This document shows, one piece after another, positions 3,388 to 6,584 of a stretch of 64,000 nt of DNA. Below the pieces are notes generated by a model. The model saw only the letters and a program-made list of their open reading frames with translations. It searched no databases and was not told the origin of the DNA. The DNA is from Rahnella inusitata (lineage in GTDB: Bacteria; Pseudomonadota; Gammaproteobacteria; Enterobacterales; Enterobacteriaceae), in contig NZ_JYDE01000017.1 of the NCBI RefSeq assembly GCF_003263515.1, positions 248,001-312,000 of the forward strand. Direction: 5' to 3'. The first letter of the stretch is position 1. Every line of letters begins with the position of its first letter. The translations under genes and the position numbers were made by a program.

Positions 3388-3466
3388 ATGGGCACGATTT
3401 GGCGTGAGAACCCCGCTAAACGCCGCTATTGTGTCGGGAGTATTTTCTTCTACAGCCGAGGTCAGT

Positions 3467-3934
3467 ATGTCAATCAAACCACCGTTACCGCCATTCACCC
3501 GCGAAAGCGCCATCGAAAAAATCCGTCTGGCCGAAGATGCGTGGAACAGCCGCGATCCACAGCGGGTCAGTCAGGTTTATTCAGCCGATACCCGCTGGCG
3601 CAACCGCAGCGAATTCGTTGAGGGGCAGGAAGCCGTCGTCGCATTTTTACAACGCAAATGGGCGAAAGAACTGGAATACCGTTTGATTAAAGAACTTTGG
3701 GCCTTTGACGGCGCGCGGATTGCGGTGCGCTTTGCCTATGAATGGAAAGATGATTCCGGCAACTGGTTCCGCAGCTTTGGTAACGAAAACTGGGAGTTTA
3801 ACGAACAGGGGCAGATGTTTGCGCGTCACGCCTGTATCAACGATTTACCGATTCAGGAAAGTGAACGCCAGTTCCACTGGCCGCTGGGGCGCAGGCCGGA
3901 TACGCATCCCGGCCTGAGTGACATGGGGTTCTGA
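3467..3934 (+). CDS. DUF1348 / SnoaL-like NTF2-fold protein
   Basis: 155-aa soluble protein of the DUF1348 family within the NTF2-like superfamily. Recognisable segments are [10 protein letters not shown] near residue 22, [13 protein letters not shown] near 38-50, [23 protein letters not shown] near 90-112, and the terminal arginine-histidine-rich [15 protein letters not shown]. The biochemical role of the family is not established. I chose the ATG at 3467 because it has a GAG-G site five bases upstream; an in-frame upstream ATG at 3404 lacks one. The gene ends six bases before the convergent AraC-type gene. Confidence 0.85.
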
Positions 3935-3939
3935 CAGCC

Positions 3940-4326
3940 TCAGGCTGATTTCTGGTGGATCAAATGCAGCGGGGGAGAAACATCGAGTTTGATGTCGGGG
4001 TTTTGGCGGAATTCATGGGGCGTAATGTTGAAACGCTTGCGGAACATGTAGGTGAAATGCGACTGCGAGCCGAATCCGAAATCCATCGCAATATCAAAAA
4101 TCGGTGTTTCACTGCTGCTCAGCTGATAGACAGCGCTCGCCAGACGACGTTCTCTGATGTACTTCCCCAGAGAAATGCCTGTCGATTCCTTGAACAGTTT
4201 TTGCATGTGCCAGAGCGAATAGCCTGAGTACTCAGCCAGTTCTTCGAGGTGGATCACGCGGCCAAGGTGGCCTTCGATCCATTTGCTGAGTGCGCTGACG
4301 ATTGCGAGATGAATGTCTTGAGCCAT
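3940..4326 (-). CDS. AraC-family regulator, MarA/SoxS/Rob type
   Basis: 128 aa consisting only of the AraC DNA-binding domain with its two helix-turn-helix motifs (first around residues 28-50, EELAEYSGYSLWHMQKLF; second around 78-100, IFDIAMDFGFGSQSHFTYMF). The pattern LGKYIRERRL matches the linker of MarA, SoxS and Rob. There is no effector domain, so activity would be set by expression level. The family activates multidrug efflux, redox and envelope genes. Its length is close to MarA (127 aa), but no marR or soxR is adjacent, so I do not assign a symbol. The start ATG at 4326 has only a weak ribosome site. Confidence 0.88.
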   Translation of the reverse strand: MAQDIHLAIVSALSKWIEGHLGRVIHLEELAEYSGYSLWHMQKLFKESTGISLGKYIRERRLASAVYQLSSSETPIFDIAMDFGFGSQSHFTYMFRKRFNITPHEFRQNPDIKLDVSPPLHLIHQKSA

Positions 4327-4413
4327 AACCAGTCTGTATTAATGTCGAATATCGCTATTATACACGACTTCGCTCTGATGGCGTTGCAGGTGTTGCTCAG
4401 GAAAGTGGGGAAC

Positions 4414-4459
4414 AAAATGGCCCGCAGAGCAGAACTGCGCGTGCAGCCTGGGGGGCCAT
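4414..4459 (-). terminator. Possible terminator after the small-protein pair
   Basis: On the minus strand ATGGCCC (4459-4453) can pair with GGGCCAT (4423-4417) around a GC-rich 29-nt loop, followed by TTTTGTT. It sits directly after the stop of the 35-aa protein. The large loop makes it a moderate candidate. Confidence 0.45.
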
Positions 4460-4462
4460 GAT

Positions 4463-4570
4463 TTAGCGTAACAGGATCCAGTGAATTAACCGGGCAATGC
4501 CATCGTCCAGAAGTACCATTCCGGCGAGAATAAGAACGATCAGAATGATAAAGTTCTTACGCGTTGGCAT
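4463..4570 (-). CDS. Small membrane protein, 35 aa
   Basis: A 35-codon frame starting at an ATG (4570) with a well-placed TGAGGTAG ribosome site. It encodes a basic N-terminus (MPTRKN), one hydrophobic helix (about residues 7-21, FIILIVLILAGMVLL), and a short tail DDGIARLIHWILLR. The layout is that of single-pass inner-membrane small proteins of Enterobacterales. I do not recognise the family. It lies 12 nt after the stop of another small membrane protein (29 aa), so the two are probably co-transcribed. The good ribosome site, basic-hydrophobic design and pairing support a real gene; no homologue check was possible. Confidence 0.65.
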   Translation of the reverse strand: MPTRKNFIILIVLILAGMVLLDDGIARLIHWILLR

Positions 4571-4582
4571 AAGCTACCTCAG

Positions 4583-4672
4583 TTACCAGGGGCCACTGCC
4601 CTGCATATTCAGTGCAATAACAGCCAGACACACCACAACAAAGACCAGCAAAACGATAAAAAGGCGTTTCAT
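4583..4672 (-). CDS. Small membrane protein, 29 aa
   Basis: A 29-codon frame: MKRLF followed by a continuous hydrophobic segment (IVLLVFVVVCLAVIALNM, about residues 6-23) and a short polar tail QGSGPW. It is predicted to span the inner membrane once with the N-terminus inside. The ribosome site is weak (AGGCTC, about 12 nt upstream). It directly precedes the 35-aa small protein on the same strand. A perfect 23-bp palindrome (4728-4750) lies about 56 bp before its start and may control the pair. The family is not recognised. Confidence 0.58.
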   Translation of the reverse strand: MKRLFIVLLVFVVVCLAVIALNMQGSGPW

Positions 4673-4727
4673 TGTTTTTTATCAGAGCCTGAGCTCTTCC
4701 TCCAGCATAGGGAAATCATCTGCAAGT

Positions 4728-4750
4728 TTCCTGAAACTGAGTTTCAGGAA
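4728..4750. promoter_or_regulatory. Perfect 23-bp palindrome upstream of the small-protein pair
   Basis: TTCCTGAAACT (4728-4738) and AGTTTCAGGAA (4740-4750) are exact inverted repeats around a single G. It lies between the end of the PBP3-like gene and the start of the 29-aa gene. No U-run follows on either strand, so an operator is more likely than a terminator. The cognate regulator is unknown; the half-site resembles but does not match a Cra site. Confidence 0.5.
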
Positions 4751-4811
4751 TCAAATCACGCGAACGTTAACCCTATTTCCCCCACAAATCCAGTGAACTT
4801 GTGACGCAGAT

Positions 4812-6584
4812 CTACCCTTCAGTCGCCGGACGCCTCACCAGATCGGTCTTCTGCCCGCCGTTGATGATGGTGGTTGGCGGCGTTTCAGGCACCAGCGCGT
4901 CAGGGGCGATGTTCATGTGGTTGAGCACTTCACCCATGATTTGTCCGAAGATAGGGCCTGCCACCGAGCCACCGAAGTGTTTACCTGCCTGCGGATTGTT
5001 GACCATGACCACCAGCGCCACGCGCGGATTACTCGCCGGTGCGACGCCAGCCGTGTAGTTGATATAACCGCCGTCGTATTTGCCGCTGGCGCCCATTTTT
5101 TCTGCGGTACCGGTTTTGATAGCCAGCCGATAACCGGGAACCGCCGCACTCAGGCCAGAGCCGCCGGGCAGGGCGTCACTTTCCATCATGTGAATCACGG
5201 TGCGCACTACATCAGCGGACATAATGCGGGTGCCGAGAACCGGAGGCGTCACTTTGGTGATCGACAGCGGGCGATAAATACCTTCAGAACCGATGGTGGC
5301 GTATTCGCGGGCGATTTGCAGCGGCGTGACGCGCAGGCCGTAGCCGAAGGAGAACGTGGCGCGTTCGATATCCGCCCAGCGCTCACGGTGCGCCGGGAAG
5401 TAACCGCTGCTCTCGCCGCCGATGCCTAAATCTGTGGCTTTGCCTAAACCGAAGGACTGATAGAGCTGCACCAGCACGTTGGCTGGCATCGCCAGCGCGA
5501 TGTGCGAGACGGCAATATCACTGGATTTCTGCAAAATGCCGGTGATGGTTAACGCAGGCCAGTGGCCGACGTCTCTTATCAGGTGCCCGTTGACGGTGTA
5601 CGGATGGGTATCAAGTACGGAGTCAGGACGGATCATCTTACGTGCCAGACCGGCCATCACCACCAGCGGTTTCACGGTTGAACCCGGCTCGAAGCTGTCG
5701 CTGATGGCGACGTTGCGCATGTCTTTGACCGCCACGCCAGCGTAGTTGTTCGGGTTATAGGACGGGAACGACGCCATGCCTAAAATTTCACCGGTGTTCA
5801 CATCCACCAGTACCGCTGCGCCAGATTCAGCCTGATTGAGCAATACGCCGGTGCGCAGTCGCGAGTACAAAACGTACTGCATAAAGCTGTCGATGCTCAG
5901 GTTGATGGTCGGTGGCTGCTGTGGCGCGACTTCTTTCAATACGCCGATGACGTTACCGTGGCGATCCTGACGGTATTCGCGCATGCCCGGTTTACCTTCT
6001 AGCAGCGCGTTGAAGCCTTTTTCGATACCGTTCAGACCTTCGTTATCGGTGCCCACCACGCCGACCAGATTGGCCGCCGCTTCGCTCATCGGATAGTAAC
6101 GGCTGTCGTCATGGATGCTGCTGATGCCACCCAGATGCAACTGACCGATATCATCGGCAATGCCTTCTTCAATTTTTCGGCCCAGATACACAAAGCGGCG
6201 CTGCGGATCGCTGTTAATGGTTTGCTGTAATTGTGACAGCGGCATATTTAGCGCGGAGGCCAGATACTGCCATTTCGGGCTGTTCAGATCGCTGTGCAAT
6301 TCGAGAATGCGAAAGGGGTCGGCGACAATATCTTTGGAAGCGACGCTTAACGCCAGCGGATGGCCGTTACGGTCGGATATCGTCCCGCGCACGGCGGGAA
6401 TAACGTTGGAACGCAGCGAGCGCGAGTCGGCTTCTTTTTCCAGCATCGGCTGATTGAGCAGTTGCAAATAGCCCACCCGGCCAAGCAAAAGCGCCATGCA
6501 ACAGACAATGCCGAGGCAAATCAGCGCAAAGCGCTTGGCGTAAAAATGGGGTTGGGCGCTGGATTTTTTTGAGCTCGGTGGCAT
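4812..6584 (-). CDS. FtsI/PBP3-like class B penicillin-binding protein (second copy type)
   Basis: 590-aa peptidoglycan transpeptidase with a short cytoplasmic tail, one membrane helix (about residues 18-38), the PBP dimerisation/pedestal domain starting near VRGTISDRNG (66-75), and a C-terminal transpeptidase domain. The active-site motifs are STVK (302-305), SSD (354-356) and KTGT (490-493). E. coli FtsI has SSN at the second motif, so this protein carries Asp for Asn. It is not in a dcw cluster, so it is probably a paralogue comparable to PBP3SAL of Salmonella rather than the essential FtsI. Its C-terminus lacks obvious extensions. The start was chosen at the first ATG that gives the full tail; the ribosome site is weak. 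Confidence 0.9.
   Translation of the reverse strand: MPPSSKKSSAQPHFYAKRFALICLGIVCCMALLLGRVGYLQLLNQPMLEKEADSRSLRSNVIPAVRGTISDRNGHPLALSVASKDIVADPFRILELHSDLNSPKWQYLASALNMPLSQLQQTINSDPQRRFVYLGRKIEEGIADDIGQLHLGGISSIHDDSRYYPMSEAAANLVGVVGTDNEGLNGIEKGFNALLEGKPGMREYRQDRHGNVIGVLKEVAPQQPPTINLSIDSFMQYVLYSRLRTGVLLNQAESGAAVLVDVNTGEILGMASFPSYNPNNYAGVAVKDMRNVAISDSFEPGSTVKPLVVMAGLARKMIRPDSVLDTHPYTVNGHLIRDVGHWPALTITGILQKSSDIAVSHIALAMPANVLVQLYQSFGLGKATDLGIGGESSGYFPAHRERWADIERATFSFGYGLRVTPLQIAREYATIGSEGIYRPLSITKVTPPVLGTRIMSADVVRTVIHMMESDALPGGSGLSAAVPGYRLAIKTGTAEKMGASGKYDGGYINYTAGVAPASNPRVALVVMVNNPQAGKHFGGSVAGPIFGQIMGEVLNHMNIAPDALVPETPPTTIINGGQKTDLVRRPATEG

Follow-up and report, generated by a model that had tools for sequence, protein, structure and literature searches.

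Gene callers easily overlook tiny membrane proteins, yet some of those that have been studied tune sensor kinases, pumps or membrane physiology. MgrB (PF13998), an inhibitor of PhoQ, is a tiny protein with a basic N-terminus, one helix with a Cys, two periplasmic Cys residues and a sequence that ends in PW. AcrZ, a small single-helix protein of about 49 aa, is a partner of the AcrB pump and is tied to MarA-type regulation and efflux. YohP is a 27-aa E. coli membrane protein (PMC12719787).

Here we analyse two consecutive frames, A and B, in 64,000 nucleotides of the Rahnella inusitata genome (hereafter the window). A is like MgrB in being tiny, with a basic N-terminus, one Cys-bearing helix and a PW end, but it has no pair of periplasmic Cys residues, and its one Cys lies at position 15, in the hydrophobic stretch. 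Homology with MgrB, which the pattern MK...C...NM...PW had suggested, was rejected: A gave no PF13998 match at E up to 1, and the genome encodes its own MgrB elsewhere (Table 1). MgrB was found elsewhere in 13 of the 14 genus genomes, and G207 gave no match. With AcrZ, A and B have in common the small size, the single helix and a suggested link to MarA-type regulation and efflux, but they match no family and are shorter. YohP falls in the same size class. A weak match to the YmiA family (NF000536; 17.9 bits, E 0.0018, cut-off 30) was given by a third tiny frame found next to the pair in g103, but A and B themselves have no YmiA match. A and B would be MgrB- or AcrZ-like in manner, and not members of either family.

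Results

The original prediction had described two consecutive frames of 29 and 35 aa, 12 bp apart, and both lie, on the minus strand, exactly where it placed them (Table 1). It had also set the pair between a MarA-type regulator and a PBP3 paralogue, and both neighbours are matched by models. The AraC regulator matches the Rob, SoxS, RamA and MarA models, every one under its cut-off, and the PBP3 paralogue scores 735.3 bits against the PRK15105 subfamily, just below the cut-off of 737. A second FtsI-like gene, 55% identical to this paralogue, lies elsewhere in the same genome, and the gene beside A is extra to the canonical one. The best matches of the paralogue in other genomes show 67-90% identity in 10 of the 11 tested, the exception being G373 (54%). 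On the far side of the locus, the order of the porin, DUF1348 and MarA-type genes is kept in several genera.

Table 1. Features of the A-B locus and of related loci.
Feature	Location	Strand	Description
Window	G000:C9		64,000 nucleotides
Gene order		-	DinI-type gene, PBP3/FtsI paralogue, 139 bp, A, B, hairpin, MarA-type AraC regulator
DUF1348/SnoaL-like protein	3464-3934	+	convergent with the MarA-type gene
MarA/SoxS/Rob-type AraC regulator	3940..4326	-	128 aa; downstream of the hairpin
Hairpin after B	4411..4459	-	T-rich tail; likely intrinsic terminator
Frame B	4570-4463	-	MPTRKNFIILIVLILAGMVLLDDGIARLIHWILLR, 35 aa
Frame A	4672-4583	-	MKRLFIVLLVFVVVCLAVIALNMQGSGPW, 29 aa
Leader hairpin AGAGC-TCAG-GCTCT	4697-4684	-	5 bp; directly after GGAGGA, 11 nt ahead of the ATG of A
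GGAGGA	4703-4698	-	sole good Shine-Dalgarno of A, 25 nt short of the ATG
Block CTGGAT(t/c)T...GGnTAAC	4760..4793	-	between the PBP3-paralogue stop and A; candidate promoter/operator
FtsI/PBP3 paralogue	4812..6584	-	PRK15105 subfamily; stop 139 bp before A
MgrB	G000:C31:20054-20140	+	the genome's own MgrB
Third tiny membrane frame	L066:6222-6323	+	33 aa; after A and B
CvrA-type locus	L137, about 4056-4285		B-like frame of about 35 aa and a further membrane frame, after a CvrA-type K+/H+ antiporter gene; also L138-L140

A and B are genuine genes, coding and conserved. Both frames are intact in 14 of the 14 Rahnella genomes (g1, the genus of the window), with one match per genome at a fixed locus and lengths that are always 29 and 35 aa, and these lengths are kept in all 19 genomes of g1 and g25. 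Five of the 19 belong to g25, which includes Hafnia psychrotolerans (G330) and, going by the identical frames of L030 and L045, Ewingella americana. Over 91 pairs, dN/dS was 0.124 for A and 0.141 for B. The pN/pS of each was lower than in 300 of 300 column shuffles, and the two other forward frames gave pN/pS above 1. Variable columns at the first, second and third codon positions number 8, 4 and 20 in the 28 codons of A, and 13, 3 and 26 in the 34 codons of B. The earlier reading of the pair as unmodelled tiny single-helix membrane genes under purifying selection is well supported by the dN/dS values and by the model searches described below, and none of the 14 genomes carries a stop or indel that breaks either frame. 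The start codon of B in these genomes is ATG in two, GTG in three and TTG in nine, with a purine-rich Shine-Dalgarno upstream; non-ATG starts and small size could cause gene callers to overlook it.

A consists of a basic N-terminus and a single hydrophobic helix, with MxGxxPW at the C-terminus. Its Cys is invariant over the 15 relatives aligned, and nine positions (M1, R3, V7, F11, C15, M23, G25, P28 and W29) are invariant in 15 distinct sequences. Several of these positions lie within the helix, as a specific partner contact would require. The mean Kyte-Doolittle value over 15 residues is 3.7 for A and 3.4 for B, and both N-termini are basic. AlphaFold2, run with no alignment, modelled B as one helix over residues 2-34 (pLDDT 94), and the protein ends in DDGIARLIHWILLR; the tail of A is short and ends in GxxPW, and the end of B is amphipathic. 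A single conserved helix face was not significant in either protein (the observed value was reached in 375 of 5000 shuffles of A and in 1648 of 5000 shuffles of B). Of the features of small regulatory membrane proteins (<50 aa), we found coding, conservation and one helix, the last from hydropathy for both proteins and from a structural model for B only. In anatomy, A and B resemble small inner-membrane modulators.

Searches of the window's A and B against Pfam, NCBIfam, PHROGs and PADLOC found no credible family (best E 0.097), and neither profile matched any sequence in the PDB at E 1 or below. One B-alone relative matched SieB with E 0.019, at 15 bits against a cut-off of 26. Rfam gave no match at gathering scores in the window and one chance-level match (E 0.13) in 4327-4811. 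Plasmid relatives of A or B were not found at E 0.1. A literature search by text terms, not by sequence, gave no description of A or B in the titles and abstract openings of the matches listed.

Profiles from the genus and its near relatives found B in 24 of the 392 genomes of the taxonomic family (8 of 154 genera), and a wider profile found it in 34 of the 392, in 12 genera, six of the 34 being weak. Matches to A at E up to 0.05 occur in 45 of the 392 genomes, of which 26, in eight genera, cover the full model with no stop codon. The remaining 19 are partial and were taken as chance; the four that we read (L100-L103) contain a stop or miss the GxxPW end. In 275 genomes from the order, no credible relative was found outside the family: 2 of 11 matches for A and 3 of 3 for B were credible, all within the family, and nine of the 11 for A cover model positions 1-25 or fewer and were taken as chance. 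Matches of B in G056 and G047 were dropped as partial, and that in G084 has no suitable frame. A B-profile match with E 0.026 lies near the MarA-type gene of g17 (L143). The rsmF-pphA stretch of one E. coli strain contains yebV and yebW and gave no B-profile match below E 7. Because A and B are each found alone elsewhere, they form two separate tiny families, paired in this locus. Proteins of this kind are known (MgrB, AcrZ, YohP and others), and both families appear to be new.

Where A and B occur together, they adjoin a MarA-type regulator, and at the loci examined in g1, g25 and g115 they also lie behind the PBP3 paralogue. Hafnia psychrotolerans departs from this in having its MarA-type gene about 7 kb away from the pair. 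A adjoins the regulator in g1, g25, g115 and g103, and in the g103 genomes G103, G224 and G356 it sits between DinI-type and MarA-type genes. Four g103 genomes have A, and it is intact in all four, while B is good in two, diverged in G296 and absent in G356, so A can act alone. The third tiny membrane frame, which follows A and B in L066, is found at the same place in L089, L091 and L092 (g103) and is kept in G356 though B is gone.

A alone, at 30 aa, lies downstream of a nitroreductase gene and convergent with an MdtG-like efflux gene in 7 of 7 loci (the MdtG model gives the latter 523 bits against a cut-off of 571). All seven carry AGGAG, and in all seven a CTAYAGT(T/A)A element followed by an A-run is aligned upstream of A, about 115 nt before A (4039) in L132 and 45 to 121 nt before it in the six similar loci. 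We take this element to resemble a sigma-S type -10; locus by locus, between 2 and 89 of 200 shuffles do equally well.

B alone lies near rsmF in 11 of 11 loci, in eight of them divergent from a pphA-like gene that is 50-53% identical to E. coli pphA. In these eight (L068, L069, L071-L073, L121, L124 and L127) B is head to head with the phosphatase gene at a distance of about 100 bp, so the two may share one control region. In four further genomes, a frame that matches B with E 1e-4 to 4e-3 follows a CvrA-type gene (Table 1) and may tentatively be placed with B. The next frame at these loci, about 36 aa long and also a membrane frame, stands head to tail with the B-like one, and a GC-rich hairpin with a run of T comes after both; we tentatively regard these loci as holding another pair of tiny membrane genes.

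Upstream of A, its Shine-Dalgarno is separated from the start codon by a short hairpin (Table 1) which, if formed, would put it at a normal distance. Phage T4 gene 38 has a hairpin that acts in this way. The stem is present in 15 of 15 distinct sequences (representing the 19 genomes of g1 and g25), with 97.3% of cells paired, one compensatory pair and the last pair broken in two rows. Four of the five pairs never vary, so covariation cannot prove the hairpin (39 of 500 shuffles score at least as high). The folding energy is not exceptional, as 22 of 200 shuffles fold at least as well in the window and 12, 92, 6 and 75 of 200 do so in four relatives, and the hairpin was not seen in the g115 and g103 leaders that were read.

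Further upstream, the CTGGAT(t/c)T...GGnTAAC block is kept with small departures across 19 aligned genomes, and the rest of the spacer varies in length and sequence, which suggests that the block serves A-B as promoter or operator, but the sigma-70 consensus gave no match. As a repeated operator in the window, GGTTAACGTNCGC gave 5 matches vs 6.0 expected; CAGACTGGATYTC gave 5 vs 2.0 expected, none of them at the A-B locus. A MarA box upstream of A showed no excess over block shuffles in 17 of the 19 genomes. Scores were high in G200 (reached by 2 of 60 shuffles) and G208 (0 of 60), at sites outside the conserved block. Ten scans, spread over five of the nitroreductase-A loci, gave scores that 16 to 60 of 60 shuffles reached, and the strict MarA-box pattern has 0 matches in the window vs 2.9 expected.

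The original prediction had further noted a strong Shine-Dalgarno for the second frame and a hairpin after the pair. Both are present, as GAGG 6 nt ahead of the ATG of B and as a TGGCCC...GGGCCA stem with TTTT beyond it. This stem has an MFE of -20.4 kcal/mol (z -1.6), a modest gain over shuffles, of which 15 in 200 fold equally well or better, and a terminator scan returned 1 site vs 0.7 in shuffles. Of the 16 sequences that were aligned (out of 19), most carry its arms; in the g25 genomes G024, G330 and G386, outside that alignment, no such stem was seen after B by eye. The hairpin is likely an intrinsic terminator.

Discussion

We consider it probable that A (MxRxxxVxxxFxxxCxxxxxxxMxGxxPW) and B (KxFx15[DE]xxARxxH) are unmodelled, exchangeable modules that stand alone elsewhere, A by a nitroreductase and an MdtG-like gene and B by rsmF and a pphA-like gene, and that are joined here beside a MarA-type regulator, with the Shine-Dalgarno of A spaced by a hairpin. 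Two things are unusual here: the modular way in which A and B occur, and the possible structured spacer in the leader of A.

What the two proteins do is a more tentative matter. At the level of class, it is fair to suppose that they would modulate a kinase, transporter or pump. The reading that we prefer, for which we claim somewhat less than an even chance, takes A and B as stress-linked modulators of larger inner-membrane proteins. Building on the coding, the conservation and the modular contexts observed, the pair would be read as a short bicistronic unit, beginning in the gap between the PBP3 paralogue and A and running to the hairpin behind B, and we infer that it has a promoter of its own. 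Each protein would span the membrane as a single helix whose basic N-terminus faces the cytoplasm, and would pack against one larger inner-membrane protein, altering its activity or stability, presumably during envelope or chemical stress. The target of A would most likely lie within the stress and efflux response under MarA-type regulators. Both homes of A touch MarA-type biology, with either the regulator or an MdtG-like gene adjacent, which is suggestive only; E. coli mdtG is a member of the marA-soxS-rob regulon (PMC12046405). B, which is found with A or opposite a pphA-like gene, has homes that point to stress in a broader sense. Against this reading we count that the rsmF and pphA homes of B do not indicate efflux, that the regulator of Hafnia psychrotolerans is distant, that MarA boxes show no excess in 17 of the 19 genomes, that no promoter consensus was matched and that a conserved helix face was not significant.

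Among the other explanations, the main one is that A, B or both are membrane-damaging peptides of type I toxin-antitoxin systems or membrane-silencing peptides like YohP, which is unlikely in our view. Size and hydrophobicity fit, a DinI-type gene is nearby, and in E. coli YohP reportedly reduces the potential and the fluidity of the membrane (PMC12719787). Set against this are the single copy at a fixed locus in all 14 genus genomes, the missing plasmid relatives, the strong constraint on polar positions, the strong Shine-Dalgarno of B and the lack of an Rfam antisense-RNA match, a search that would miss undescribed antisense RNAs. It is improbable that A and B act like CydX of cytochrome bd, as small subunits that stabilise a constitutive membrane enzyme or transporter. 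Fixed lengths, invariant residues and pairing in four genera would suit such subunits, but both families are patchy (B in 34 and full-length A in 26 of 392 genomes), and the loci read show no membrane-enzyme gene constantly beside both.

A partnership with the PBP3 paralogue, in which A and B would be accessory proteins tuning this second division transpeptidase in the membrane, was demoted from main reading because the paralogue stands at another locus in G103, G224 and G356, where A keeps its place between the DinI- and MarA-type genes; we now hold it to be quite improbable. The order PBP3 paralogue-A-B is kept in g1, g25 and g115, and also in Hafnia psychrotolerans, where the MarA-type gene is far off. 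However, no match to A or B occurs at the paralogue loci read in one genome each of g5, g119, g103, g78 and g17, and the neighbourhood of A is different in g5, g104, g112 and g141. Of the two neighbours that the original prediction named, the MarA-type one gains some support from the recurrence of A relatives beside an MdtG-like gene, while the PBP3 paralogue is not required. That the locus encodes a conserved RNA, with the frames fortuitous, is scarcely credible. Two hairpins and a conserved upstream block are present, but synonymous-biased change confined to exactly these frames speaks strongly against it, the frames persist in genomes whose flanking DNA differs, and no Rfam family is matched.

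For the stress-linked modulators that we favour, the MarA-type regulator, MdtG-like pump, nitroreductase and PphA-like phosphatase that accompany A and B are concrete places in which to seek function. By strict sequence tests the genes of both families are real, yet the libraries searched contain no model for either, and the Rahnella pair is small enough for easy tagging, mutation and deletion.
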